From NCBI RefSeq assembly GCF_014204935.1, contig NZ_JACHMJ010000001.1:1-64000 (forward strand): a DNA stretch of 64,000 nucleotides. The letters run 5' to 3'. Positions 49,186-63,383 of this stretch are shown here, piece after piece. How positions within the stretch are numbered: the first letter of the stretch is position 1; the number at the start of each line of letters is the position of its first letter. The translations under genes and the position numbers were made by a program. Below the pieces are notes generated by a model that did no database searches, had not been told where the DNA came from, and saw nothing but the letters and a program-made list of their open reading frames with translations. Source of the stretch: Conyzicola lurida. Lineage in GTDB: Bacteria > Actinomycetota > Actinomycetes > Actinomycetales > Microbacteriaceae.

Positions 49186-49827
49186 ATGGCGCAACAGGTG
49201 CGGGCGCAGATAACGCGCGAGCGGCTGATCGACGGCGCCGCCGAGGCGTTCACCCGGCTGGGCTACATCTCGGCCACCACGACCGACATCGCGCGGTCCG
49301 CGGGCGCCACCCGCGGTGCCCTCTACTTCCACTTCCAGTCGAAGGAAGAGATCGCGCGCGCCGTCGTCGACAAGGAGCAGCGCCTCGCCGTCGAGTCCGG
49401 CACGCGCATCGTCGACCTGGGCCGCCCGGCGCTCGAGACGATGCTGCTGCTGAGCGTGGACCTCGCCGAGCGCATGCAGGTCGATCCCGTGGTCAAGGCC
49501 GGCATCCGCCTCACCACCGAGAACTCCAACTTCGATCCCCCGCTGCGCGCGCCCTACGAGCAGTGGCTCGCCACCTTCGGCGCCATCGCCGCGGTGGCCG
49601 TGGAGCAGGGCGACTTCCGCGGCGATCTCGACCCCGCGATGTTCGCCCGCTTCCTGATCCCGTCGTACACCGGCATCCAGCTCGTCTCCGACACCTTCAC
49701 CGGCCGGGCCGACCTGCTGCCGCGCATCCGCGAGATGTGGCTGTTCATCTTCCCCGCGGTGGTGCCCGCGGAGCGCATCGAGAACGCGCGGGCGGTGCTC
49801 GACGGGCTGATTCCCGAGGCCCTGTAG
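49186..49827 (+). CDS. Gamma-butyrolactone-receptor-like TetR regulator
   Basis: The 213-residue protein starts MAQQVRAQITRERLIDGAAE and has the TetR helix-turn-helix (SAGATRGALYFHFQSKEEIA). Over its whole length it follows the ArpA/ScbR pattern: TRERLIDGAAEAF, GYISATTTDIA, ALYFHFQSKEEIARAV, DPVVKAGIRLTTEN, APYEQWLATF and IPSYTGIQLVSDTF. W127 aligns by position with the tryptophan conserved in the CprB/ArpA ligand pocket, as I recall it. It lies 68 bases ahead of the carboxylase gene on the same strand. Whether it senses a butyrolactone is unknown. Confidence 0.82.
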   Translation: MAQQVRAQITRERLIDGAAEAFTRLGYISATTTDIARSAGATRGALYFHFQSKEEIARAVVDKEQRLAVESGTRIVDLGRPALETMLLLSVDLAERMQVDPVVKAGIRLTTENSNFDPPLRAPYEQWLATFGAIAAVAVEQGDFRGDLDPAMFARFLIPSYTGIQLVSDTFTGRADLLPRIREMWLFIFPAVVPAERIENARAVLDGLIPEAL

Positions 49828-49895: not shown

Positions 49896-52800
49896 GTGAC
49901 TACGACCACCCCTCTCCCGCGAACCGCCGCCGAGCCCCTCACCTACGGCACGGTGCTCGTCGCCAACCGCGGGGAGATCGCCTGCCGCATCATCCGCTCG
50001 GCGAAGGCGATGGGGCTGCGTACCGTCGCGGTGTACTCCGACGTCGACCGCGGCGCGCCGCACGTCAAACTCGCCGACGTCGCGGTCAACATCGGGGCCG
50101 CATCGCCGCGGGAGTCGTACCTCAACGGGCCGAAGATCCTCGCCGCCGCGATCGAGAGCGGCGCCGGCGCGATCCACCCCGGCTACGGTTTCCTCTCCGA
50201 GAACGCCGAGTTCGCGGCCAGTGTCGAAGCGGCCGGTATCGCGTTCGTCGGCCCGACCGTCGAACAACTCACGGTCTTCGGCGCCAAGCACACCGCCCGG
50301 GCCGCCGCGGCCGAGGCGGGCCTGCCGATGGTGCGCGGCACCGGCATTCTCGCTGACGCCGACGACGCGGTCCGCGCCAGCGAGGAGCTCGGGTTCCCCG
50401 TCATCCTCAAGGCCACCGGCGGCGGCGGCGGAATCGGCATGCAGGTCTGCCGCAGCGTCGCCGAGGTGCGCGACGCCTTCGTCTCCATCGAACGGATGGC
50501 GCAGCAGAGCTTCGGCAGCGGCACGATCTTCGCCGAGCGGTACATCGAGAACGCGCGGCACATCGAGGTGCAGGTGTTCGGCGACGGCCGCGGGTTCGTC
50601 GTGAGCCTCGGCGACCGCGACTGCTCGCTGCAGCGCCGCAACCAGAAGGTGGTCGAAGAGGCCCCCGCGTTCGACCTCGACGACGAGCTGCGCGAGCGGC
50701 TGCACTCCACCTCGCGCGCCCTCTGCGCCGCGCTCGACTACCGTTCCGCCGGCACCGTCGAGTTCGTCTACGACACCGTGCGCCACGAGGCGTCGTTCCT
50801 CGAGGTGAACACGCGCCTGCAGGTGGAGCACCCCGTCACCGAGGCGATCACCGGCGTCGACCTGGTCGAGTGGATGCTCGCGCTCGCCGGCGGCGACGAC
50901 TCGTTCCTCGACGCCTACCGCGAGACCGCGACCGTGCCCACGAGCGGCAACGCCGTCGAGGCCCGCGTCTACGCCGAAGACCCGGTGCGCGGGTTTCAGC
51001 CCTCATCGGGCACGATCACCCGGGCCGTGTTCCCGTCCGCGGCGCGCGTCGACGCGTGGGTCGAGACCGGCAGCGAGGTGCCCAGCTCGTACGACCCGAT
51101 GCTGGCCAAGATCATCACGAGCGGCGTCGACCGCGCCGCCGCCTGGCACGCGCTCGCCGACGCGCTGCGCGACACCCGCATCGACGGCATCGAGACCAAC
51201 CTTGGTCTGCTGCGGGCGATCAGCATGGACGAGGATGTCGCGGCCGGCGCCCACATCACGTCGACGCTCGCCTCGCTGACCGACACCGAGCCGCGCATCG
51301 CCGTCGAGCGCCCGGGGCTGATGACCACCGTGCAGGACTGGCCCGGCCGCACCGGCTACTGGCAGGTCGGCGTGCCGCCGAGCGGCCCGATGGACGACCT
51401 CTCCTTCCGTCTCGGCAATGTCGCGCTCGGCAATCCCGAGGGTGCGCCCGGCCTCGAGTGCACCGTCTCCGGCCCACAGCTGCGCTTCGACGCGGAGACC
51501 GTCGTGTGCGTCACCGGCGCGACGGCCCCGGTCACCGTCGACGGCGAACCCGCGCCCATGTGGGAGCCGGTCGTGGTGCCGGCCGGCGGCACCTTGAGCG
51601 TCGGTTCGGTGAGCGACGAGGGGCTGCGCGTCTACGTGCTGTTCGCCGGCGGGCTCGACGTTCCGCTCTACCTCGGCAGCGCGTCGACCTTCACGCTCGG
51701 CCAGTTCGGCGGCCACGGCGGCCGCGCGCTCACGAGCGCCGATGTGTTGCGCGTCGCGGCATCCGGCCCTCAAAAATCTGCCGGCGTGCCGGCCGAGGCC
51801 CGCCCCGAGATCACGCACCACTGGCAGCTGGCAGTCACCGAGGGGCCGCACGGCGCCCCCGAGTTCTTCACCCGCGCCGACATGGACCAGATCTACGCGG
51901 CCGACTACTCCGTGCACTTCAACTCGGCCCGCACCGGCGTGCGGCTCGTCGGACCGAAGCCGACCTGGGCGCGCACCGACGGGGGAGAGGCGGGGCTGCA
52001 CCCGTCGAACATCCACGACAACGCGTACTCGATCGGCGCGGTCGACTTCACCGGCGACACCCCGATTCTGCTCGGCCCCGACGGTCCCAGCCTCGGCGGA
52101 TTCGTCTGCCCGGTTACGGTCGTGTCGGCCGAGCGCTGGAAGCTCGGGCAGCTCAAGCCCGGCGACACGGTGCGTTTTGTGCCGATCCGGGCCGCAGCGG
52201 CACCCTCGTTGCGGGCCCTCGACGAGTCGCGGTTCGTCGTCAACGCGCTGCTTGGCAGCGGCGGCGACGGGGACGACGGCGTGATCCTGCGCCAGGACGG
52301 CGACCCCTCCGTCACCTACCGCCGCAGCGGCGACGACAACGTGCTCGTCGAGTACGGCGACATCGTGCTCGACCTCGCGCTGCGGGCGCGGGTGCACGCG
52401 CTGTACACGAGAGTTCAGGATGCCGCGTGGCCCGGCGTTCTCGACCTCACCCCGGGTATCCGCTCGCTGCAGGTGCACTTCGACCCGACCGTGCTGTCGG
52501 TGACGACGGTGCTCGGCCGGTTGCGCGAGCTCGAGGAGCGCATCCCCGGCGCCGCCGAGCTCGTCGTGCCCAGCCGCCGCGTGCGGCTGCCGCTGTCGTG
52601 GGACGACCCGGCGACGCGCGAGGCGATCGAGCGCTACATGAACGGCGTGCGCGACGACGCCCCGTGGACACCCTCGAACATCGAGTTCATCCGCCGCATC
52701 AACGGGCTGCACACCCCCGAAGACGTCTACCGCACGGTGTTCGACGCCGAGTACCTCGTGCTCGGGCTCGGCGACGTCTACCTCGGCGCGCCCGTCGCCA

Positions 52801-53540
52801 CCCCGCTCGACCCGCGGCACCGCCTCGTCACCACGAAGTACAACCCCGCGCGCACCTGGACGGCCGAGAACTCGGTCGGCATCGGCGGCGCCTACCTGTG
52901 CATCTACGGCATGGAGGGGCCGGGCGGCTACCAGTTCGTCGGCCGCACCACGCAGGTCTGGAGCCGCTACGGCTCGTTCGCGCCCGCCGGAACGCCGGCC
53001 GACGCGCCCAAGCCGTGGCTGCTCAACTTCTTCGACCGCATCTCCTGGTACCCGGTCGGCGCCGACGAACTGCTCGACATGCGCGCCGAGGTGGCAGCGG
53101 GCCGGGGCGTGTTCGACATCGAAGACGGCACGTTCTCGCTCGCCGAGCACGAGCGGTTCCTCGCCGACAACGCCGAGTCGATCGCCGAGTTCCGGTCGAT
53201 GCAGGCCGGCGCCTTCGGTCTCGAGCGGGAGGCGTGGACCGCCTCAGGCGAATTCGACCGGGCCGAGAGCATCGAGGCGGTCGCGCCGCCCCAGGAGGAC
53301 GTACTCGACCTGCCCGACGGCGCCATCCTCGTCGACTCGCCCTTCATCTCTCACGTCTGGAAGATCGACATCGCAGACGGGCAGCGGGTCGCCGAGGGCG
53401 AGCTGCTGGTGTCGCTCGAGGCGATGAAGATGGAGACGAACATCGTCTCGCCGGTCGCCGGCACAGTGCTGATGCTGCGGGTCGCGCTCGGTCAGCAGGT
53501 GCGCGCGGGCGAGACCATCGCGATCATCGTCCCCGACTAG
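49896..53540 (+). CDS. Biotin-dependent urea/guanidine carboxylase
   Basis: The GTG start at 49896 gives 1214 residues, the full length of urea carboxylases. Domains in order: biotin carboxylase with GGGGGIGMQ near 174 (about 1-455), a carboxyltransferase formed of KipA-like (from about 465, ERPGLMTTVQDWPGRTG) and KipI-like halves (about 890-1130), and a BCCP with EAMKMET and biotin-bearing K1178. It carboxylates urea, or guanidine in the CgdAB-linked pathway, using ATP and bicarbonate. The DUF1989 pair downstream favours guanidine. The upstream part of this frame overlaps the TetR gene and is not coding. A leaderless mRNA is possible. Confidence 0.9.
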   Translation: MTTTTPLPRTAAEPLTYGTVLVANRGEIACRIIRSAKAMGLRTVAVYSDVDRGAPHVKLADVAVNIGAASPRESYLNGPKILAAAIESGAGAIHPGYGFLSENAEFAASVEAAGIAFVGPTVEQLTVFGAKHTARAAAAEAGLPMVRGTGILADADDAVRASEELGFPVILKATGGGGGIGMQVCRSVAEVRDAFVSIERMAQQSFGSGTIFAERYIENARHIEVQVFGDGRGFVVSLGDRDCSLQRRNQKVVEEAPAFDLDDELRERLHSTSRALCAALDYRSAGTVEFVYDTVRHEASFLEVNTRLQVEHPVTEAITGVDLVEWMLALAGGDDSFLDAYRETATVPTSGNAVEARVYAEDPVRGFQPSSGTITRAVFPSAARVDAWVETGSEVPSSYDPMLAKIITSGVDRAAAWHALADALRDTRIDGIETNLGLLRAISMDEDVAAGAHITSTLASLTDTEPRIAVERPGLMTTVQDWPGRTGYWQVGVPPSGPMDDLSFRLGNVALGNPEGAPGLECTVSGPQLRFDAETVVCVTGATAPVTVDGEPAPMWEPVVVPAGGTLSVGSVSDEGLRVYVLFAGGLDVPLYLGSASTFTLGQFGGHGGRALTSADVLRVAASGPQKSAGVPAEARPEITHHWQLAVTEGPHGAPEFFTRADMDQIYAADYSVHFNSARTGVRLVGPKPTWARTDGGEAGLHPSNIHDNAYSIGAVDFTGDTPILLGPDGPSLGGFVCPVTVVSAERWKLGQLKPGDTVRFVPIRAAAAPSLRALDESRFVVNALLGSGGDGDDGVILRQDGDPSVTYRRSGDDNVLVEYGDIVLDLALRARVHALYTRVQDAAWPGVLDLTPGIRSLQVHFDPTVLSVTTVLGRLRELEERIPGAAELVVPSRRVRLPLSWDDPATREAIERYMNGVRDDAPWTPSNIEFIRRINGLHTPEDVYRTVFDAEYLVLGLGDVYLGAPVATPLDPRHRLVTTKYNPARTWTAENSVGIGGAYLCIYGMEGPGGYQFVGRTTQVWSRYGSFAPAGTPADAPKPWLLNFFDRISWYPVGADELLDMRAEVAAGRGVFDIEDGTFSLAEHERFLADNAESIAEFRSMQAGAFGLEREAWTASGEFDRAESIEAVAPPQEDVLDLPDGAILVDSPFISHVWKIDIADGQRVAEGELLVSLEAMKMETNIVSPVAGTVLMLRVALGQQVRAGETIAIIVPD

Positions 53541-53543
53541 CGC

Positions 53544-54251
53544 TCAGGCGACGTCGTCGAGCAGCGCGTGACCGGCCGACGTGATCGCGGCCACGGCACC
53601 GGCGTCGAAGCCGAGCACGTGCAGGCAGCTGCTCGCGACGACCTCGACCAGCACGGCCGGCTCGTCGTCGGGGTGGTCGGCGCGGATCGCGATGACGCTC
53701 TCGACCAGGGCGAAGACCACCTCCGTGAGGTACTTGCCCTCGTGGGCGCGCGGCGCCGAGGGGGCGCCGGGGCCGTCGGCCGCGAGCACCTGGGCGATCA
53801 GCGACGCGTAGACGTTCTGCAGCGACATCCGCTCGTCTTGGAATCTTTCGAAGCCGCCCGCCCGCACCTCGGGCAGCAGGTAGAGCGTGCCGACGTTGTG
53901 CGGCGCCCGCACCAGCTGGCCGACGTCGTAGGAGATGAGAGCGAACAGGCGCACTGACGCGGGGGCGTCGAGCTCGGCGAGGGTCGCGGCCATCGTCATC
54001 GACGGCTCGACCGTGCGCAGCAGCAGCACGTCGAGCAGCCGCTCCTTGCTCGGGAAGTGGTAGTAGAGAGAGGCCTGGCGGATGCCGACCTCGTCGGCGA
54101 TCGCCCGGGTCGAGGTGGCGGTGTAGCCGCGCTGCACGAAGAGGCGGGCGGCGGCGTCGAGGATCTGGTCGGCCGGGCTGAGGTCGGGTCGCAGAGTCGT
54201 GCCGGAACGGGGTCGGCCGACCTCGCTCTTCTTCGGGAGATCGTCGGCCAT
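53544..54251 (-). CDS. TetR/AcrR family regulator
   Basis: The ATG at 54251 gives 235 residues (MADDLPKKSEVGRPRSG start); a longer start at 54323 is possible. The helix-turn-helix lies in ILDAAARLFVQRGYTATSTR then EVGIRQASLYYHFPSKERLL. A ligand domain of about 170 residues follows. The gene is convergent with the carboxylase gene, 3 bases apart, and divergent from the transporter operon. It is the obvious candidate regulator for both, through the sequences at 49876 and 54380. Confidence 0.88.
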   Translation of the reverse strand: MADDLPKKSEVGRPRSGTTLRPDLSPADQILDAAARLFVQRGYTATSTRAIADEVGIRQASLYYHFPSKERLLDVLLLRTVEPSMTMAATLAELDAPASVRLFALISYDVGQLVRAPHNVGTLYLLPEVRAGGFERFQDERMSLQNVYASLIAQVLAADGPGAPSAPRAHEGKYLTEVVFALVESVIAIRADHPDDEPAVLVEVVASSCLHVLGFDAGAVAAITSAGHALLDDVA

Positions 54252-54379
54252 GCGGCCATCGTGCCACAGATCGCGGGGTGGGCCGCGTCGCTCGCGGCCC
54301 TCGACGGCCCCAGACGGCGTCAAAGCTAAACATGCCCGTTACATGGCTGAAACGAACGGGCGGTTGGATAGTGACATAA

Positions 54380-54397
54380 ACCTGTCAAGCGATAGAA
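54380..54397. promoter_or_regulatory. Operator-like sequence upstream of the transporter, copy 2
   Basis: ACCTGTCAAGCGATAGAA shares 13 of 18 bases with 49876-49893, with the same spacing between CTGTCA and GATAGAA. It lies 76 bases before the binding-protein ATG and 129 bases before the TetR start. It is either an operator, a promoter, or both. Confidence 0.5.
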
Positions 54398-54472
54398 ACA
54401 AACTGGTTTGATCCACAGTTGTCCCGCACCGTCCCCACCACGCCCCGCACCACGGAACTGAAGGACTCACCC

Positions 54473-56035
54473 ATGACTACGAAGAGAATCGCCGGGGTCG
54501 TCGCGTCGGCGACCGCGCTGCTGCTGATCGCGACGGCCTGTTCGAGTGCCGCCCCGGCCGCCGAATCGTCGGACACGACCCTCCGCCTCGCGCTGAGCTC
54601 GGACATGACCACCCTCGATCCGAGCACCGTCTACCAGTTCGAGGGCAACCAGGTTCTCACCGCCGTCTACGAGGGGCTGCTCGAGTACGCGAGCGACTCG
54701 TCGCCCGACATCGAGCCGCTGCTCGCCGAGAGCTACACCGTCTCCGACGACGGGCTCACCTATACCTTCTCCCTGCGCACCGACGTCACCTTCGCCGACG
54801 GCAGCATCATGACCTCGGCCGACGTACAGCAGAGCTTCGAGCGCCTCGGCGTCGAAGAGGTCGGCTCGCAGATGTCCTACATGCTGATGGGCGTCGCGAG
54901 CTACGAGACCCCGGATGACGCCACCCTGGTCATCACCCTGGCCCAGCCCGACGCGTCGTTCCTGAGCCTCCTCGCCAGCCCGTTCGGGCCCAAGGTGATC
55001 GACCCCGCCGTGCTCGACGAGTACAGCGCCGACAACGCACTCGAGTACCTGAGCGCCAACACCGCGGGCACCGGTCCCTACGAGGTGACGCAGTTCACCG
55101 AGGGCCAGGAGTACGTGCTGACCCGCAACGACGACTACTGGGGCGACGAGCCCTACTTCGAGACGGTCAGCTTCAAGATCATCCCGGATGCCGCGACCCA
55201 GGTGCTCCAGTTGCAGGGCGGCGACCTCGACCTGATCACCGGCCAGCCGATCGCCACCGTGCAGAGCTTCGTCGGCAACGACGAGTTCCAGATCCCGACC
55301 CTGCCGACCCTGCTGAAGGCCCAGCTGCACCTGCAGACCACCGGCAACCTCGCCGACGTCGAGGTGCGTGAGGCCCTGCGTTCCGCCATCGACCGCCCGG
55401 CGCTCGTCGAGCAGATCTGGGGCGACTACGCCACCGAGTCCACCCAGCTCTACCCCGTCGACAACGTCCCCGAAGGAACCGCGACGGACGAGTGGGAGTA
55501 CGACACCGCCCCGCTCGAGGAACTCGCCGCCGGAAAGACCTTCTCGCTCGGCTACGTCACCGGCAGCGCGCAGAACAAGCAGGTCGTCGAGGCGTTGCAA
55601 GCCCAGTGGGCCGCGGCCGGCGCCGACGTCACCCTCGTGCCCCTGCAGTCGGGCGACCTGTACGGCTTCAGCGGCGACCTCTCCGCCGCGCCCGACATGA
55701 TCTACGAGACCGCCTTCCCCGACTCCTCGCACCCCGACACCTGGGCGCGGCTGTTCTGGTACAGCGACACCTCGATGGGTAGCGGCGCGCTGAACTACAT
55801 CGGCGGCGGTTCCCCCGAGGCCGACGCGGCGATCGACGCGGGCATCAGCACCGTCGACCCGGACGAGTCGCTCGCCTCCTACGGCGAGGCCGGCGACCTG
55901 ATCGAGGAGCAGGCGAGCTTCATCACGCTCGCCGACCTCGAGGACACCTTCATCGCCCGCGCCGGGCTCAGCGGATTCGCCCACTGGCTGCCCGCGGCCA
56001 GCACCGTCGACCTGCGCGAACTCACCGGAGAGTAA
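54473..56035 (+). CDS. ABC transporter substrate-binding lipoprotein (peptide/nickel type)
   Basis: The 520-residue protein starts at ATG 54473 (after AAGGA). A basic N-terminus and hydrophobic segment end in LLIATAC, with C23 as lipid site. TTLRLALSSDMTTLDPSTVYQFEGNQV and ANTAGTGPYEVTQFTEGQEYVLTRNDDYWG are typical of family 5 binding proteins (OppA/DppA/NikA). It should bring a small molecule to the permease pair. In this locus, between a urea/guanidine carboxylase and two DUF1989 genes, a guanidino or ureido compound is more likely than a peptide. That is inference. Confidence 0.9.
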   Translation: MTTKRIAGVVASATALLLIATACSSAAPAAESSDTTLRLALSSDMTTLDPSTVYQFEGNQVLTAVYEGLLEYASDSSPDIEPLLAESYTVSDDGLTYTFSLRTDVTFADGSIMTSADVQQSFERLGVEEVGSQMSYMLMGVASYETPDDATLVITLAQPDASFLSLLASPFGPKVIDPAVLDEYSADNALEYLSANTAGTGPYEVTQFTEGQEYVLTRNDDYWGDEPYFETVSFKIIPDAATQVLQLQGGDLDLITGQPIATVQSFVGNDEFQIPTLPTLLKAQLHLQTTGNLADVEVREALRSAIDRPALVEQIWGDYATESTQLYPVDNVPEGTATDEWEYDTAPLEELAAGKTFSLGYVTGSAQNKQVVEALQAQWAAAGADVTLVPLQSGDLYGFSGDLSAAPDMIYETAFPDSSHPDTWARLFWYSDTSMGSGALNYIGGGSPEADAAIDAGISTVDPDESLASYGEAGDLIEEQASFITLADLEDTFIARAGLSGFAHWLPAASTVDLRELTGE

Positions 56036-56037
56036 CT

Positions 56038-56928
56038 ATGTCCCGTCTGCTGTCGGCCCGCGCACCGGGCCTCGTGCCCGGTGCCGGGCCGGTGCCCGGT
56101 GCCCGGCGGTACGACCTGTTCGGCGCGTTCCGGCGCAAGCGGGTCGGCTACGCCGAGCGGGTCGCGGTCGTGCTAATCGGCATCCTCACCGTCGCCCTGC
56201 TCGCGGCGGCGTGGATCGCGCCGCATTCGGCGAGCGAGATCGTCGGCACGGCGTTCACCCCGCCCTCCGCCGAGGTGCCGTTCGGTACCGACAGCCAAGG
56301 CAGGGACGTCTTCTCGCGGGTGATCCTCGGGCTGCAGGCCAGCTGGTTCGGCGCCCTCGGCGTGATCGCGTTCGGCGTCGTGTTCGGCGGCGCGATCGGC
56401 CTGGTCGCAGGCATGGCCGGCGGTGTGATCGACACGATCCTGATGAGATTGACGGATGCCGCTCTGGCACTACCCGGCACGCTCGTCGCGCTCATGGTGG
56501 TCGCCGCTCTGGGCCCGAGTCTGCAGAACACGCTCATCGCCGTCGCGGTCACCTGGTGGCCCTGGTACGCGCGCATCGTGCGCGGCTCCACGCGCAGCAT
56601 CGTTCATCTGCCGCACGTCGACGCCGCCCGGCTCGGCGGTTTCTCCAAGTTCCGTCTCGCGGTCGTGCACGTGCTTCCCGGCAGTATCGGCCCGGTGCTC
56701 GTCGCCGCGTCGCTCGACGTGGGCGGCGTGCTGCTCGTGCTCGCCTCGCTGTCGTTCATCGGCCTCGGTTCCCCGGCCCCCGCCGCGGAGATCGGCAGCA
56801 TGGCGGCCGACGGTCTCACCTACCTGTTCAACGCGCCGTACATCGCGCTCGCCCCCGCGCTGGCGCTGTTCGCCGTCGCCTTCATCGCGAACTACGCCGG
56901 CGACGCGCTGCGCGAGCTGACGGAGTAG
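56038..56928 (+). CDS. ABC transporter permease (DppC type)
   Basis: The 296-residue protein starts MSRLLSARAPGLVPGAGPVP and has six membrane segments. The N-terminal part and ITLGTDSQGRDVFSRVI-like segment (PFGTDSQGRDVFSRVILGL) are typical of DppC. The EAA-type loop is IVHLPHVDAARLGGFSKFRL. Its ATG is 2 bases after the binding-protein stop. Confidence 0.92.
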   Translation: MSRLLSARAPGLVPGAGPVPGARRYDLFGAFRRKRVGYAERVAVVLIGILTVALLAAAWIAPHSASEIVGTAFTPPSAEVPFGTDSQGRDVFSRVILGLQASWFGALGVIAFGVVFGGAIGLVAGMAGGVIDTILMRLTDAALALPGTLVALMVVAALGPSLQNTLIAVAVTWWPWYARIVRGSTRSIVHLPHVDAARLGGFSKFRLAVVHVLPGSIGPVLVAASLDVGGVLLVLASLSFIGLGSPAPAAEIGSMAADGLTYLFNAPYIALAPALALFAVAFIANYAGDALRELTE

Positions 56929-56931
56929 CCG

Positions 56932-57930
56932 ATGGTCAAAGCAATCGCCACCCGCATCGGCTCGACCGCCGCCGTGCTGCTCGTGCTCTCGCTCGCGGTC
57001 TTCTTCATCCAGCGCACGCTGCCCGCCGACCCGGTGCGCGCCCTCGTCGGACGCACCGCCAGTCCCGAGGTGATCGCCGCGGCTCGCGAACGCCTCGGCC
57101 TCGACCAGCCCGTCATCGTGCAGTACTTCCAGTTCCTCGGCGGACTGCTGCGCGGCGACGCCGGAACCTCGCTGCGCACCCGCAACCCGGTGCTCGACGA
57201 CATCGCCGCGTACCTGCCGGCGACGCTGGAGCTCGTCGTGGTCGCGATCACGATCGCGCTCGTCGCCGGGTTCGTGCTCGGCGTGGTCAGCTCGCGCGGC
57301 GGCTGGCTGTCGACCGGCGTTACCGCGGTCTCGGTCGCGGGATCCTCGGCCGCCACCTTCCTCGTCGCGATCCTCGCCGTGCTCGTCTTCTACCGCAACC
57401 TCGGCTGGTTCCCGGCTGGCGGACAGAGCAGCTCGGGTGCGGCCGTCGGTCCCACGGGGTTCGTGCTCGTCGACACCCTGCTCAGCGGCGATCTCGGCGC
57501 GTGGTTCGACGCCTGGCACCACGTGCTGCTGCCCGCCGCCGTGCTCGCCGTCGGGCCCGCGGTGGCCATCGGCCGCACCTTCCGCGGCTCGCTGCGCAGC
57601 ACCCTGCAGAGCGAGTTCATCCGCTCGGCCTACGCCAAGGGCTTCGGCTGGCACACGGTCGTGCTGCGGCACGCGACCCGCAACGCGCTCGGCCCCGCCG
57701 TCTCGATGGCGGGTCTGCAGCTGGGCATGCTCTTCGCCGGGTCGATCGTGGTCGAGAAGGTCTTCTCCTGGCCGGGTGTCGGCGGCTACCTGTTCAACTC
57801 CATCGGGGTGTCCGACTTCCCCGCCATCGTGGGCGTCGTGCTCGTGATGGGCCTCATCTACGTGGTGGTCAACTTCGCGGTCGACATGATCCAGCTCGCG
57901 GTCGACCCGCGTCAAAGGAAGGTCGCATGA
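56932..57930 (+). CDS. ABC transporter permease (DppB type)
   Basis: The 332-residue protein begins MVKAIATRIGSTAAVLLVLS. It has six membrane segments and the DppB pattern: LPADPVRALVGRTASPE after TM1, then GLDQPVIVQYFQFLGGLLRG, and the loop FIRSAYAKGFGWHTVVLRHATRNAL. It starts 3 bases after the other permease gene and its stop overlaps the ATPase start by four bases. Order (DppC before DppB) is the reverse of most dpp operons. Confidence 0.92.
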   Translation: MVKAIATRIGSTAAVLLVLSLAVFFIQRTLPADPVRALVGRTASPEVIAAARERLGLDQPVIVQYFQFLGGLLRGDAGTSLRTRNPVLDDIAAYLPATLELVVVAITIALVAGFVLGVVSSRGGWLSTGVTAVSVAGSSAATFLVAILAVLVFYRNLGWFPAGGQSSSGAAVGPTGFVLVDTLLSGDLGAWFDAWHHVLLPAAVLAVGPAVAIGRTFRGSLRSTLQSEFIRSAYAKGFGWHTVVLRHATRNALGPAVSMAGLQLGMLFAGSIVVEKVFSWPGVGGYLFNSIGVSDFPAIVGVVLVMGLIYVVVNFAVDMIQLAVDPRQRKVA

Positions 57931-59555
57931 ACGTCCCGACGAAAGAACTCGTGGCGCAGGTCGTCGACCTGCGTGTCAGCTTCGCCACCGAGGACGGTCT
58001 CGTGCAGGCGGTCAAGGGTGTCGACCTCGAGATCCGCGCCGGCGAGATCCTCGCCATCGTCGGCGAATCGGGCTCGGGCAAGACCGTGCTCAGCAGCTGC
58101 CTGATGGGGCTGCCGCCGACCAGCCGTAAAACCACCGTCACCGGCTCCGTGCTGATCGCGGGGGTCGACATGATCGAGGGCGACGAGAAGCTGCGCCGCG
58201 AGGTGCGTCGCAACCTGCTCGGTGCGGTGTTCCAGGACCCGCTCACCTCGCTCGACCCGATGATGAAGATCGGCGCGCAGGTGCGCGAGCGTGGCGCGAC
58301 ACAGCAGCGCGGCGTCGACGCCCTCGTCGACTGCGGCGTGCCCGAACCCGAGATGCGTATGGACCAGTGGCCGCACGCGCTGTCGGGCGGGCTGCGGCAA
58401 CGTGTCAGCATCGCGTCGGCTCTCACCACCGACATCCGGCCCCCTGTATCTTCTGGAGTGGACTCGACCCGCATCGGCGAGCTCGTGGCCGCGCAGGACG
58501 GCACACCGATTCTGCTCATCGCCGACGAGCCGACCACCGCGCTCGACGTGCGGGTGCAGGCGCAGATCATCGCGCTCTTCGCCCGGCTGCGGGAGGAGCA
58601 CGACTGCTCGATCGTGCTGATCACCCACGACCTCGGGGTTGCCGGTCAGATCGCCGACCGGGTCGCCGTGATGTATCAGGGCGAGCTCGTCGAGGTCGGA
58701 CCGACCGAGCAGGTGCTGCGCGACCCGCAGCACGAGTACACGAGAAGGCTGCTCGACGCGCGCCTCGACATCAAGAAGGTGTTCGCGACGGCCGAACGCG
58801 AGCCGGCGGTCGACGTGTCCGCCGCTCCCGACCTCGTGCTGACCGACATCGTCAAGAGCTACCCGAAAGCCGGCGGCAGGCGGGGCGAACGGCTCACCGT
58901 CGTCAACGGCGTCTCGCTCTCGGTGCCGCGGGGTGGATCGCTCGCCCTCGTGGGGGAGAGCGGCTGCGGCAAGTCCACGCTGCTGAGGATCGCGACCGGG
59001 CTCACCGCGGCCGACTCGGGAACCGTGGGCAGCCGCGACGGCGAACGGCCGCAGCTGGTCTTCCAGGACGCGGGGTCGTCGCTGACGCCGTGGCTGAGCA
59101 TCGAGTCGCAGATCGGCGAGCGGCTGCGGTCGCGCCGGTTCTCGCGGGCCGAACGCGCCGAGGAGACCAACCGGCTGCTGGGCCGGGTGGGCCTCGACAC
59201 GCGTGCCGCCCGGGCCAGGCCGCGCGAGCTCTCGGGCGGGCAGCGGCAGCGCGCCGCCATCGCCCGGGCGCTGGCTTCGAACCCCAACATCCTCGTCTGC
59301 GACGAACCGGTGAGCGCGCTCGACGCCTCGCTCGCCGCCCGCGTGCTCGACCTGCTCGAAGAGCTACGCGAGACAATGGGCATCGCGATCCTGATGGTGA
59401 CCCACGACCTCGCGGTCGCGAAGCGCATCAGCAATACGGTGGCCGTGATGTACGCCGGGGAGATCATCGAGCGCGGCTCCTCGTCCGAGGTCTTCGCCTC
59501 GCCACAACACCCCTACACGCGGGAGCTGCTCGCGGCATCCCCGACTATCTACTGA
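57927..59555 (+). CDS. Fused two-module ABC ATPase (DppD-DppF type), with an insertion
   Basis: The 542-residue protein joins two ATPase modules. The first has Walker A GESGSGKT (46-53) and signature LSGGLRQRVSIA starting at L152; the second has Walker A GESGCGKST from G343 and LSGGQRQRAAIA. In module 1 about 26 residues (169-194) lie between the signature helix and Walker B ILLIADEP, against about 5 in DppD-type proteins, so some 21 residues appear inserted. The second module is regular. The Opp-type C-terminal motif (EVGPTEQVLRDPQHEYTRRL) ends module 1. It powers the importer. The ATG overlaps the permease stop. Confidence 0.9.
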   Translation: MNVPTKELVAQVVDLRVSFATEDGLVQAVKGVDLEIRAGEILAIVGESGSGKTVLSSCLMGLPPTSRKTTVTGSVLIAGVDMIEGDEKLRREVRRNLLGAVFQDPLTSLDPMMKIGAQVRERGATQQRGVDALVDCGVPEPEMRMDQWPHALSGGLRQRVSIASALTTDIRPPVSSGVDSTRIGELVAAQDGTPILLIADEPTTALDVRVQAQIIALFARLREEHDCSIVLITHDLGVAGQIADRVAVMYQGELVEVGPTEQVLRDPQHEYTRRLLDARLDIKKVFATAEREPAVDVSAAPDLVLTDIVKSYPKAGGRRGERLTVVNGVSLSVPRGGSLALVGESGCGKSTLLRIATGLTAADSGTVGSRDGERPQLVFQDAGSSLTPWLSIESQIGERLRSRRFSRAERAEETNRLLGRVGLDTRAARARPRELSGGQRQRAAIARALASNPNILVCDEPVSALDASLAARVLDLLEELRETMGIAILMVTHDLAVAKRISNTVAVMYAGEIIERGSSSEVFASPQHPYTRELLAASPTIY

Positions 59556-59573
59556 TCGCTTCGAAAGGTCTCC

Positions 59574-60401
59574 ATGTCAGAGTCAGCCACTAACGACCCG
59601 AACGGCGCCCGGGCCCACGCCCGCGCGCAGGGCGGCGTCAGCATCGAGACGATGCCCGTGTTCCCGCCGTCCGCGGCAGACCACTGGCCCGAGGGCGTCG
59701 AGCCCGAGAGCGCGGTCTGGGCCGAGACGGTCGGCGCCGGCAACTACACGGCGCTCGCCGTGGCCGCGGGCACCGTGATCGAACTCACCGACCTCGAGGG
59801 CGACGCCTGCGCCCACCTCGCGCTGTTCAACTCGCTGCAGACCGACGAGCGCCTCAACGTCGCCGACACCGTCAAGGTGCAGTGGCAGGCCTACCTCGCG
59901 GCCGGGCACCTGCTGCTCTCCGACCGTGGTCGGGTGCTCGCCACGATTCTCGCCGACACCTCCGAGCACCACGACACCTTCGCCGGCACGTCGACCCGTC
60001 GCGTCAACGAGGCCCGGTACGGCAGCGGCAGCGCGCACGGCGGCAGCCCCGCCGGACTCGAGCTGCTCACGCTCGCCGCGGCGAAGTTCGGCCTCGAACC
60101 GCGCGACCTGCCGCCCACGGTGACGCTGTTCCAGGGCGTCTTCGTCGAACCGACCGGCGCGCTGACCTTCACCGGTTCCGCCGGCGCCGGCGCGACCGTG
60201 CGCCTACGCGCCGAGCTGCCGCTCATCGTGCTCCTCGCCAACGTGCCGCACCCGCTCGACCCGCGGCCCGAGTACACCTCGTCACCGCTGCGCATCCGGG
60301 CCTGGGCCGGTTCGCCCGCGACCGGAGCCGACTCGGACACCCCGGAGGCAGCCCGTGCCTACGCCAACACCATCGCCTACTCGAACCTCAGGGGAATCTG
60401 A
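59574..60401 (+). CDS. DUF1989 protein, urea-carboxylase-associated (CgdB/UAAP2-like)
   Basis: The 275-residue protein has the DUF1989 pattern: AGTVIELTDLEGDACAHLALFNS, then DRGRVLATILADTSEHHDTFAGT, and AAKFGLEPRDLPPTVTLFQGV. The pattern fits the larger subunit type of the carboxyguanidine deiminase pair (CgdAB, earlier called urea-carboxylase-associated proteins). CgdAB removes ammonia from carboxyguanidine to give allophanate. It follows the ATPase gene by 18 bases and its stop overlaps the next ATG by one base. Confidence 0.85.
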   Translation: MSESATNDPNGARAHARAQGGVSIETMPVFPPSAADHWPEGVEPESAVWAETVGAGNYTALAVAAGTVIELTDLEGDACAHLALFNSLQTDERLNVADTVKVQWQAYLAAGHLLLSDRGRVLATILADTSEHHDTFAGTSTRRVNEARYGSGSAHGGSPAGLELLTLAAAKFGLEPRDLPPTVTLFQGVFVEPTGALTFTGSAGAGATVRLRAELPLIVLLANVPHPLDPRPEYTSSPLRIRAWAGSPATGADSDTPEAARAYANTIAYSNLRGI

Positions 60402-61021
60402 TGAGTCTCACCGCCACAGCCACCGTCGTCAGCGACGACACCGTCGAGCGCCGCGGGCCGTGGTCGAAGCTGCTCACCGCGGGCCAGTCGCTGACCATCG
60501 TCGACCTGCACGGCAACCAGGCCGTCGACTTCCTGGTCTACGACGCGCACGACACTGCCATCCGGTACAGCGCGCAGCAGACCATGGCCCGCCAGGGCAA
60601 CATCTTCCTGACCACCGGGTCGACCCTGCTCGCGAACACCGGGGACGCGCTGATGACCATCGTCGAGGACGAGGTCGGCCGGCACGACACCATCGGCGGA
60701 GCGTGCAGCAAGGAGTCGAACTCGCTGCGCTACGGCGCGCACACCGTGCACGAGCACGCCTGCGTCGAGAACTTCCTCGCCGAGGGCGCCCGCTGGGGAC
60801 TCGGCAAGCGCGACCTGGTGAGCAACGTCAATTTCTACATGAACGTGCCGGTCGAACCCGACGGCGTGCTCGGCATCGTCGACGGCATCTCGGCCCCCGG
60901 CCTGTCGCTCACGCTGCGCGCGGACCGCGACGTGATCGTGCTGGTCTCCAACTGCCCGCAGATCAACAACCCCTGCAACGGCTTCGACCCGACGCCCGTG
61001 CGCATGGTCGTGACCGCGTGA
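60401..61021 (+). CDS. DUF1989 protein, urea-carboxylase-associated (CgdA/UAAP1-like)
   Basis: The 206-residue protein has the DUF1989 pattern with a conserved cysteine set: GGACSKESNSLRYG, EHACVENFL and NCPQINNPCNGFDPTPVRM. HGNQAVDFLVYDAHDTAIRY is the N-terminal family segment. It pairs with the larger DUF1989 protein, as in carboxyguanidine deiminase (CgdAB), where a metal is bound. Its ATG overlaps the previous stop by one base and its stop overlaps the MBL start. The pair strongly suggests the carboxylase acts on guanidine or a derivative. Confidence 0.88.
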   Translation: MSLTATATVVSDDTVERRGPWSKLLTAGQSLTIVDLHGNQAVDFLVYDAHDTAIRYSAQQTMARQGNIFLTTGSTLLANTGDALMTIVEDEVGRHDTIGGACSKESNSLRYGAHTVHEHACVENFLAEGARWGLGKRDLVSNVNFYMNVPVEPDGVLGIVDGISAPGLSLTLRADRDVIVLVSNCPQINNPCNGFDPTPVRMVVTA

Positions 61022-61845
61022 GCGTGCGTGCCTGGGGGCCCGCGGAGGCACTCGCCGTCACCGGCCGGCCGCTGCGCATCCACCCCATGGTCGTGGGCTA
61101 CGAGCCGATCCGCGAGGACATCTCGATCATCGGCGGGGACGACCACGTCTTCCTGCTCGAGCCGGTGACCGCCACGGCGGTCGTCTACGCGGACGGTTGG
61201 GTACTGCTCGACTCCGGATTCAACGTCGACGTGATCCGCGATCCCGAGGAACGCCGCTACTACTTCAACTACGACAGCTACACCGCGCTCGTGCCGCCCG
61301 GCGACCCGCTGCCCGAGCAGGTCGCGGCCCTCGGCCTCGAGTGGTCGCGGCTGCGCGGCTGCGCCATCTCGCACGTGCACGTCGACCACACGGGCGGGCT
61401 GCGGTTCGTGCCCGCGGACGTGCCGGTCGTCTTCCAACGCGCCGAGTACGAGTTCGGCGCGACGATCAGCCCGACGATGGGCGGCGACTACGCGGCCGTG
61501 CCCAAGGACTACCTGCGCGACGGCCTCGACATCGTGCTGATCGAGGGCGACGTCGAACTCTCCCCCGGTCTCACTGCCATCGACACGGCCGGTCACACCC
61601 CCGGCCACCAGTCGTTCGTGGTCGAGCTCGCCTCCCGCACGGTCGTACTTGCCTGCGACGCCGCCGACCTGCGCAAGAACATCGTCGAGGCGATCCCCTG
61701 CGGCACACAGATGAGACCCGAGGATGCCGCCGCAGCACAGACCGCCGTCGACCGGCTGCGCGAGCTCGACGAGAGGCCGGGCGTCGAAGTCTGGCCCGGC
61801 CATGACCCCGAGTGGTGGGGGTGGAAGGAGCGGGTGGTGGAGTAG
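61018..61845 (+). CDS. MBL-fold hydrolase, N-acyl-homoserine-lactonase-like
   Basis: The GTG at 61018, overlapping the previous stop by four bases, gives 275 residues. The metal site has SHVHVDHTGG (H119, H121, D123, H124), H193 in TAGHTPGHQS, D214 in CDAADL and H262 in PGHDPEWW. This is the AiiA/AttM lactonase-like pattern of the MBL superfamily, not a beta-lactamase. In an operon with a carboxylase and CgdAB-like proteins it could hydrolyse a lactone, an amide or a related bond. A lactonase role is not proven; allophanate or another carboxylated intermediate is also possible. Confidence 0.87.
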   Translation: MSVRAWGPAEALAVTGRPLRIHPMVVGYEPIREDISIIGGDDHVFLLEPVTATAVVYADGWVLLDSGFNVDVIRDPEERRYYFNYDSYTALVPPGDPLPEQVAALGLEWSRLRGCAISHVHVDHTGGLRFVPADVPVVFQRAEYEFGATISPTMGGDYAAVPKDYLRDGLDIVLIEGDVELSPGLTAIDTAGHTPGHQSFVVELASRTVVLACDAADLRKNIVEAIPCGTQMRPEDAAAAQTAVDRLRELDERPGVEVWPGHDPEWWGWKERVVE

Positions 61846-61952: not shown

Positions 61953-63383
61953 ATGACAGACCTGCTCCCCATCACGCCGCCCCCGCCGCCGGACCCGTTC
62001 CGCCCGCTCGGCACCCTGGGCCAGATCCTGAACGCGGTCGAAGAGGCCGACCGACTCGCTCGGGCCGCCACGGCGATCCGCGCCGGGCTCATCGACGACG
62101 CCCGCATGTTCGCCGAGCTGCTCGTCGGGCTCGACCCCGAGGTCACCGAGCGTGACGGCTGGACGCCCGACGTCCGGGGCCGCCGCGAACTGGTCTTCGA
62201 TCTCGCCGCCCGGTTGCGCATCCCCGAGCGCAGCGCCGAGAACCTCGTCGGCGAATCGAAGGTACTCGTCTGGAGTTTGGCGAGCACTCTCGGCTACCTG
62301 CGCGAGGGGTACATCGAGTACGGTCACGCGAAAGTCATTATCGAGGTGTGCGGGGGCCTCAAAGACGAGGTGCAGCGCGGCTTCGAGATCGAGCTGCTGG
62401 GGCACGCGATCGAGCTGACCGTGCCGAAGTTCAAGGCGCTCGCCCGCCGGCTGCGCGAGGCCCTCGACCCGCACACGGCCGACAAGCGGCACCGCGACGC
62501 GGTGGAGGAACGACGGGTGTACCTCGATCCGCAAGAGGACGGCATGTCTCTGCTGAGCGTGCTGACCACGGCCGAGAAAGCGGCTGCGGCACACGACCGC
62601 ATCACCCGCATCGCGCTGGCGCTCGGGGCGGTCGAAGCGGCGGCGGAAGGGGCGGCGGGCGACGGGGTAGGGGCGACCGACGCAGCCGAGCCCGACACAC
62701 GCACTCTGGCGCAGAAGCGGGCCGACGTGTTCGCCGACCTGCTCATCGACGGCGACCTCTGCGAGACGGGAGAGCCGGCCGCCCACGGCATCCGGCCGAA
62801 CGTGCTCGTCACGGTTCCCGTCCTCACGCTCGTCGGCGCCGAAGAGATCCCGGGCACCCTCGAGGGGTACGGACCCATCGCGCCCGAGACCGCCCGGGAT
62901 CTCGCGGCCCGGGCACCGAGCTTCGCCAGGATCCTCACCGATCCGGTCAGCAGCGCCATCCTCGACTTCGACCGCTCCAAGTACGCCGTCCCGGCCGACC
63001 TGCGCACCATCATCCGACTGCAGAACGAGACCTGCACCGCGCCGGGCTGCACCCGGCCCGCATCCCAGTGCGACTACGACCACACTGTCGCGTGGCAAGA
63101 CGGCGGTACGACCTGCCTGAGCAATCTGAGCCCGCTCTGCCGCACCCACCACAACCTCAAACACCACACCCGCGTACAACTCCGCAATCTCGGCAACGGC
63201 CAGATGGAGTGGACCACACCCACCGGGCACGTCGCGGTCACCCGCCCCACCACGGAACTCGGTGCGGGCATGCTGAAACGCGGTTCGCCCCGTGGAGCGG
63301 AGAAGACCGAGCCTCCGCCACCGGAGGCGTTGCCCGAGCCGCCGCCGTCCGAGCAGTCCCCGCCACAACCCTTCGATTCCTGA
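61953..63383 (+). CDS. DUF222 and HNH endonuclease domain protein
   Basis: The 476-residue protein has an N-terminal DUF222 region (LRIPERSAENLVGESKVLVW, then YIEYGHAKVIIEV). The HNH nuclease is near residues 355-405, with CTAPGCTRPASQCDYDHTVAW and NLSPLCRTHHNLKHH (the H...N...H set). Proteins of this type occur in many copies in actinobacterial genomes, and their role is unclear. The C-terminal tail is proline-rich (PPPPEALPEPPPSEQSPP). It stands alone after the carboxylase locus. Confidence 0.9.
   Translation: MTDLLPITPPPPPDPFRPLGTLGQILNAVEEADRLARAATAIRAGLIDDARMFAELLVGLDPEVTERDGWTPDVRGRRELVFDLAARLRIPERSAENLVGESKVLVWSLASTLGYLREGYIEYGHAKVIIEVCGGLKDEVQRGFEIELLGHAIELTVPKFKALARRLREALDPHTADKRHRDAVEERRVYLDPQEDGMSLLSVLTTAEKAAAAHDRITRIALALGAVEAAAEGAAGDGVGATDAAEPDTRTLAQKRADVFADLLIDGDLCETGEPAAHGIRPNVLVTVPVLTLVGAEEIPGTLEGYGPIAPETARDLAARAPSFARILTDPVSSAILDFDRSKYAVPADLRTIIRLQNETCTAPGCTRPASQCDYDHTVAWQDGGTTCLSNLSPLCRTHHNLKHHTRVQLRNLGNGQMEWTTPTGHVAVTRPTTELGAGMLKRGSPRGAEKTEPPPPEALPEPPPSEQSPPQPFDS

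Follow-up and report, generated by a model that had tools for sequence, protein, structure and literature searches.

Why should a bacterial operon for guanidine assimilation end in a gene for a metallo-beta-lactamase-fold (MBL) hydrolase, and on what would its product act? The question is raised by the first 64,000 nucleotides of the Conyzicola lurida genome (the window, which is the start of a single contig of 3,643,329 bases), where a carboxylase gene, a TetR-family regulator, a peptide-type ATP-binding cassette (ABC) importer, two DUF1989 genes and an MBL gene lie between positions 49,896 and 61,845. An earlier note on this DNA had listed these parts, with the MBL gene as the last that is coupled, and profile matches bear out each of them at its place. 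The locus is read here as a guanidine-nitrogen assimilation operon in which the MBL enzyme frees guanidine from a larger, imported guanidino compound, a reading that, taken as a whole, we would bet neither for nor against. Computation shows the gene content of the operon, the guanidine-type signature of the carboxylase, an atzF gene at another place in the genome, and a repeated linkage of this MBL family with guanidine genes and Guanidine-I riboswitches.

In the scheme that we propose, the peptide-type importer would bring in the guanidino compound and the MBL-fold enzyme would cleave it to free guanidine, helped in this genome by further hydrolases of a second locus, a cyclase-family enzyme included. 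Guanidine carboxylase and the carboxyguanidine deiminase CgdAB would then turn guanidine into allophanate, and a split AtzF, encoded at about 2.16 Mb, would take this on to ammonia and CO2. What the MBL enzyme does, which compound is imported and that the two loci cooperate are the parts that we infer. The earlier note had left two options, that the operon serves a larger guanidino or ureido compound or that the MBL enzyme stands in for a hydrolase step; the first, on its guanidino side, is the better supported and is kept as a proposal.

A carboxylase operon of the guanidine type

The carboxylase (49,896-53,540, plus strand; 1214 aa) has biotin carboxylase, carboxyltransferase and biotin-carrier domains, matches TIGR02712 over its full length (1739 bits, cut-off 1304) and is the sole full-length member of that family in the genome. 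Its Asp717 aligns with Asn1330 of K. lactis urea amidolyase (5i8i), and Asp960, in the LGLGD motif, falls on K. lactis Asp1584 and is kept. Asp versus Asn at position 1330, together with Asp at 1584, separates guanidine from urea carboxylase according to PMC11410670. By this Asp signature the window enzyme is of the guanidine type, and a preference for guanidine is predicted; urea as the substrate, which the earlier note had kept in view in the form of a urea-type active site, is rejected on the Asp at position 1330. Among 16 relatives from the same bacterial family that position is Asp in 15 and Asn in one (L048/G034), whose carboxylase stretch gave no match to CgdAB or the MBL protein. A search of the genome for urease alpha found no match.

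The DUF1989 pair, which adjoins the importer in the carboxylase locus and comprises the only two such genes in the whole genome, scores above cut-off as the UAAP1 and UAAP2 types, that is, as CgdA (59,574-60,401, plus strand; TIGR03425, 261.6 bits, cut-off 206) and CgdB (60,401-61,021, plus strand; TIGR03424, 321.8 bits, cut-off 284.7). The names guanidine carboxylase and CgdAB, as first proposed, have accordingly held up, and deiminase activity is predicted. Over 29 aligned rows the conserved residues of CgdB include Cys102, His119, Cys121, Cys185 and Cys192; Cys is absent from those of CgdA. The MBL gene (61,018-61,845, plus strand; 275 aa; PF00753, 59.6 bits) begins with a GTG that overlaps the CgdB stop by four bases.

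The importer, also on the plus strand, consists of a family 5 (peptide/nickel type, SBP_bac_5) solute-binding lipoprotein (54,419-56,035; PF00496, 235.5 bits), two BPD_transp_1 permeases, of C type (56,038-56,928; PF00528) and B type (56,932-57,930; PF00528 and PF19300), and an ATPase of 542 aa, recognised from its sequence, in which two ATP-binding domains are fused in one chain (57,927-59,555). The ATPase start overlaps the B permease stop by four bases. Lipoprotein and ATPase are 62% and 68% identical, respectively, to their counterparts at an Amnibacterium locus (L080).

Linkage of the MBL gene to both guanidine routes

When 23 MBL-related loci were scanned with Rfam, a Guanidine-I riboswitch was found in ten. 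In the Paenibacillaceae the MBL protein of locus L143, used as query, gave matches (E 1e-25) in 17 of 295 genomes, six of them close (at least 64% identity, query included) and 11 weak. Carboxylase, present in 89 of the 295, occurs in all six close-MBL genomes and in none of the 11 weak ones; with the query genome removed the comparison is 5/5 against 83/289 (p 0.002). All six carboxylases have the guanidine-type Asp, and in all six loci a Guanidine-I riboswitch stands in front of the MBL operon, while the three weak-homologue loci examined, of the 11, had none. At four of the six the divergent carboxylase operon has a Guanidine-I riboswitch of its own. Genes were called with the codon statistics of the window, which proved unreliable in low-GC Paenibacillus and called no genes in locus L144, so open reading frame (ORF) listing and tblastn were used there instead.

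A second arrangement, with MBL and guanidinase genes behind a Guanidine-I riboswitch, is seen in three actinobacterial metagenome-assembled genomes (MAGs; L140, L144, L101). In L140 a Guanidine-I riboswitch is followed by importer genes, a guanidinase gene, a gene in which MBL and isochorismatase-like domains are fused, and urease genes (the last named from sequence). The guanidinase scores 555 bits to 7esr, identical in sequence to 7oi1, which PMC11410670 calls Synechocystis GdmH; its score to 9fek, labelled putative agmatinase 2, is 628 bits. L144 and L101 each hold a Guanidine-I riboswitch, an MBL gene and a protein 78% and 83% identical, respectively, to the L140 guanidinase. In a further locus, L110, the riboswitch lies after the MBL gene and before a CgdA-like gene. 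At L101:187-5850 the riboswitch is separated from the MBL and guanidinase genes by an arginase-family-like ORF and a 412 aa gene, whose homologue in L094 (59%) likewise stands before the MBL gene; on the opposite strand, ahead of the riboswitch, there is one more arginase-family-like ORF.

Depending on the lineage, then, the MBL gene accompanies either the carboxylase route or guanidinase, in L140 and L144 with urease as well. Since it is found with each of the two known routes, the MBL enzyme most likely acts on a substrate that comes before guanidine. The rival that fares best, although we think it unlikely, places the MBL enzyme on or after free guanidine, where it would speed the hydrolysis of carboxyguanidine or clear a cyclised or mis-carboxylated by-product. 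Gene order lends it some colour, in the overlap of the MBL start codon with the CgdB stop in the window, in the MBL gene directly 3' of AtzF in the Microbacterium loci L083, L086 and L089-L091, and in two Paenibacillaceae loci (L273, L274) whose riboswitch-led unit matched importer genes and MBL only, among the queries used. The guanidinase route of L101, L140 and L144, however, has neither carboxyguanidine nor allophanate, and the genomes of L140 and L144, which are MAGs and may be incomplete, show no carboxylase match. Nor does such a role sit well with the 12 of 16 other family genomes that have carboxylase without a close MBL orthologue, a count that weighs against release of guanidine by the MBL enzyme too.

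Extent of the association

Carboxylase was found in 17 of 150 family genomes (own included). The MBL query matched 26 of the 150 at E 1e-10, and five of these (own included) are set apart at 53% identity or more, the next standing at 40%. Orthologues at this level thus occur in four of the 149 other genomes, all four being among the 16 with carboxylase (one-sided Fisher p 9e-5, kinship uncorrected). In a sample of 393 genomes from the class, 51 had a carboxylase match (E 1e-200) and 21 an MBL match (E 1e-30). When strong MBL matches were defined as those of 295 bits or more, a line drawn after the scores were seen, carboxylase was present in 6/11 strong-MBL and 1/10 weaker-MBL genomes, which we count against our reading; without the own genome the figures are 5/10 for strong MBL against 45/382 for the others (p 0.004).

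Neighbourhoods were compared at 80 MBL loci from a scan of genome contigs, the best 80 of at least 565, by tblastn matches within 4 to 21 kb of DNA per locus. The loci were classed as near (L079-L091; 13 loci, 48-72% identity), mid (L092-L148 and L157; 58 loci) or far (the remaining nine). Across near, mid and far loci, carboxylase was matched in 9, 4 and 0, AtzF in 9, 6 and 0, CgdA or CgdB in 9, 2 and 0, an ABC permease pair in 5, 40 and 0, an isochorismatase-like gene in 4, 30 and 0, and guanidinase in 0, 3 and 0. The genomes of 30 loci chosen from the 80, of which 25 had no carboxylase match in the locus itself, were searched as well: 27 have a carboxyltransferase region with the guanidine-type Asp, seven of the 27 without the biotin-carboxylase part in the same match. 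Genome-wide presence of carboxylase is a weak contrast, because genomes with far or long-branch MBL proteins (L151, L154) hold it too.

Those two genomes are among several observations that tell against release of guanidine by the MBL enzyme. Carboxylase, AtzF or guanidinase is matched in just 18 of the 80 stretches, and the other 62 show none of them. Two genomes of the class (G222, G442) have importer, isochorismatase-like gene and MBL gene without a carboxylase match, and in three more (G327, G194, G444) the MBL gene follows an era-like GTPase gene in a stretch with no guanidine genes. The genome of L110 (G864) has Met at position 1330 in its sole carboxyltransferase-like match. In an MBL tree of 106 rows the guanidine-linked rows form no single clade. 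Two absences concern the window genome itself: no guanidine riboswitch was detected in the window with Rfam 15, at gathering score or at E up to 5 (which guanidine classes Rfam 15 covers besides Guanidine-I being unchecked), and a search of the window and the 2.16 Mb locus (L010) gave no isochorismatase-like gene, the rest of the genome not having been searched. Finally, two other genes are common at the mid loci: allantoicase in 20 of 58, and a 2-oxoglutarate/Fe(II) oxygenase near the MBL gene in 31 of 58 (L098 and L102 are examples). Because of these last two, the MBL family may not be tied to guanidine everywhere.

The nearest named relatives in the tree make the window genome probably a member of the Microbacteriaceae. 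The labels of the tree change 16 times, at least 14 of the changes being forced by supported branches; all of 500 shuffles gave more than 16 (mean 25.7). The labels were assigned by tblastn in flanking DNA, and so vary with the length of the flanks; 13 were set by hand. Two side observations may be added. In three genomes of one family (L241, L242, L243) a same-family MBL gene directly follows what we take to be an era-like GTPase gene, and no catabolic gene of the query set was matched. A gene for a protein of about 176 aa lies near the MBL gene in 31 of the 58 mid loci; the one tested had no Pfam match.

On another reading the operon would handle plain guanidine only, with the peptide-type importer as guanidine carrier and the MBL enzyme in a minor or unrelated role. 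This, too, we regard as improbable, by a shade more than action on or after free guanidine. It is consistent with Guanidine-I riboswitches sensing guanidine itself and with the ABC importers of carboxylase operons in other genera, which are thought to carry guanidine (both points from PMC12186494 and PMC12508155), as well as with three genomes (G054, G022, G124) in which carboxylase, CgdAB and a family 5 importer occur but a close MBL orthologue does not. Against it stand the repeated linkage of MBL and guanidine genes in two phyla, the fusion to a second hydrolase and the further hydrolases in the clusters.

The allantoicase genes suggest another option, in which the MBL family is part of the catabolism of ureides (allantoin-type) and owes its place in guanidine operons to shared nitrogen regulation. 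In L098 the allantoicase gene comes after hydantoin-racemase-family and amidohydrolase genes, and L245 (G486) has carboxylase, AtzF, MBL and allantoicase in one stretch. Allantoicase was matched in none of the 13 near loci, however, and Guanidine-I riboswitches stand before MBL operons in the Paenibacillaceae and in three actinobacterial MAGs, which makes a ureide role a decidedly poor prospect.

Allophanate hydrolase and a second locus

The earlier note had seen no allophanate hydrolase. This is correct for the window, which contains none of the seven matches to that family in the genome, and incorrect for the genome, since atzF lies on the same contig at 2,161,661-2,163,327 (L010:8662-10328). 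Its amidase part scores 521.6 bits (cut-off 511). The gene is split, a separate C-terminal-domain gene having its GTG start over the amidase stop (GTGA); in the Herbiconiux locus L079 AtzF is one ORF of 559 aa by gene calling. In 13 of the 16 family relatives the atzF amidase gene is found in the carboxylase stretch (up to 20 kb), and of the three without a linked atzF two are contigs that start inside the carboxylase. L079, a MAG locus and the closest relative of the operon found, reads AtzF (minus strand), carboxylase, TetR (minus strand), CgdA, CgdB, MBL and a phosphotriesterase-like gene. Because these relatives keep atzF by the carboxylase, it has probably become separated from the operon in the window genome.

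That the MBL enzyme replaces allophanate hydrolase, as the absence of atzF from the window had suggested, is rejected as scarcely credible, because atzF is present in the genome and near the carboxylase in the 13 relatives; atzF and MBL genes, moreover, share one stretch in nine of the 13 near loci (L079, L081, L083, L085, L086, L088-L091), which refutes replacement as the general role. The note had taken an atzF gene adjacent in close relatives as a sign against its proposals; the 13 cases count against replacement only.

At 2.16 Mb a cyclase-family gene (PF04199) lies 5' of atzF, and an alpha/beta-hydrolase, an amidohydrolase, a second peptide-type ABC importer and another amidohydrolase lie 3' of it. 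In Agreia VKM Ac-1783 (L081) homologues of this second locus run straight into MBL, TetR, AtzF, carboxylase, CgdB and CgdA, so that importer, amidohydrolases, cyclase, MBL, AtzF, carboxylase and CgdAB, whose homologues make up both loci of the window genome, form a single stretch. Eight genes of L081 are 77-86% identical to those of the second locus, AtzF excluded, which stands at 56%. The arrangement of G140, in the part examined (L037), is like that of L081. Because homologues of the two loci are joined in these genomes, cooperation of the loci at 0.05 Mb and 2.16 Mb is plausible.

The cyclase gene adjoins the MBL gene in all four of the other family genomes with a close MBL, and is present in 6/13 near, 4/58 mid and 0/9 far stretches; an obligate pairing of the two is rejected on its rarity in the mid and far loci. 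Cyclase-family genes also occur in clusters near MBL homologues in L092, L093, L097, L107 and L079, with glutamine-synthetase-like and Rieske genes in all of these except L107, and with gamma-glutamyltranspeptidase in all except L079. The clusters resemble gamma-glutamyl amine catabolism.

Fold and active site of the MBL enzyme

The AlphaFold model of the MBL protein has a predicted local distance difference test score (pLDDT) of 93.6, and the nearest solved structures are AiiA and related lactonases (E 1e-21, TM 0.78, 24% identity over the structural alignment). Fold and metal-ligand positions are shared with the AiiA-type N-acyl homoserine lactonases. The positions that we assign, from those of AiiA, to dinuclear metal binding (H119, H121, D123, H124, H197, D214, H262) are invariant in all 22 aligned rows, and so is Asp217, which takes the place of AiiA Tyr194, an active-site residue. 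The modelled fold and metal site indicate a hydrolase and name no substrate.

That the gene encodes a quorum-quenching lactonase which came by chance to stand in this operon, with a possible tie to the upstream ScbR-like regulator, has hardly any credit with us despite the structural neighbours, and identity as such an enzyme is rejected, as the scores are far under the NCBIfam cut-offs (AttM 98.9 of 390 bits, AiiA 87.4 of 375), the Tyr194 position is Asp in every row, and L079 has no ScbR-like gene at that place.

The isochorismatase-like partner and known systems

The fusion in L140 is the one case in which the MBL protein is joined to an isochorismatase-like domain. Five isochorismatase-like proteins or domains from MBL loci share 40-58% identity among themselves, and their identity to a cysteine hydrolase encoded on plasmid pMET-2 of P. 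mendocina (CP098607) is 28-34%. The guanylurea hydrolase of P. mendocina MET belongs to the isochorismatase superfamily (PMC9800807), and the pMET-2 protein is taken, from its deaminase neighbour, to be that enzyme. Its gene is flanked on both sides by ABC importer genes, and the same holds for the isochorismatase-like gene in the MBL operon of Paenibacillus. Both regions have the order solute-binding protein, hydrolase, permease, ATPase, and the permeases and ATPases are 49% and 46% identical; pMET-2 alone has a deaminase gene between solute-binding protein and hydrolase. In both, an ABC importer and an isochorismatase-like hydrolase would feed a guanidine pathway, but no MBL match was found in the 50,000 of 90,221 bases of pMET-2 that were compared. 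The identities lend no support to the partner being plain GuuH. It is plausible that the partner acts on a guanidino substrate in a related way but with an activity of its own, because gene order and importer are shared while the hydrolases diverge.

The carboxylase operon itself is of a known kind. With described guanidine carboxylase operons (guanidine carboxylase, CgdAB, AtzF) it shares the guanidine-type carboxylase, the UAAP1/UAAP2 pair, an ABC importer and an AtzF in the genome; it differs in the unlinked and split AtzF, the TetR regulator, the lack of a detected riboswitch, the family 5 importer and the added MBL gene. The MBL gene fits a pattern described for Vreelandella boliviensis, in which two extra genes of the carboxylase operon (mgdH, mgdL) make guanidine from a derivative, methylguanidine (PMC12508155); they encode a dioxygenase and a lyase, whereas the window has an MBL hydrolase. 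No description of an MBL enzyme in guanidine operons was found among the papers listed in searches of the open-licence literature of PMC, subscription papers being outside the search, and the MBL step would be new if confirmed.

More generally, we suggest, with somewhat less confidence than for the window operon, that an MBL-fold family found beside an importer, often near an isochorismatase-like hydrolase and once fused with it, frees guanidine from a natural conjugated or cyclic guanidino compound in two phyla. This suggests that some microbes draw guanidine from a larger compound. Several riboswitch classes sense guanidine, yet where it comes from in nature is, according to PMC12186494, still an open question. 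If the proposal is true, both guanidine routes gain a new entry step, one that points to where in nature the free guanidine sensed by riboswitches arises; in an MBL enzyme that lies behind Guanidine-I riboswitches and has ties to both routes, the missing source would have a candidate that can be tested.

Regulators and neighbouring genes

Two TetR-type genes flank the carboxylase. Directly 5' of it, at 49,186-49,827 on the plus strand, is the ScbR-type (gamma-butyrolactone receptor-like) regulator (NF041196, 174.8 bits, cut-off 150); in Herbiconiux L079 it is missing from that place and a divergent atzF precedes the carboxylase instead. In 15 of the 16 family relatives the carboxylase stretch includes a homologue, 37-58% identical, of the TetR-family gene between carboxylase and importer (53,544-54,251, minus strand; PF00440). 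Downstream of the MBL gene the window has an ORF of 476 aa (61,953-63,383), which encodes a putative 13E12-repeat HNH endonuclease; the phosphotriesterase-like gene of L079 occupies the corresponding place.

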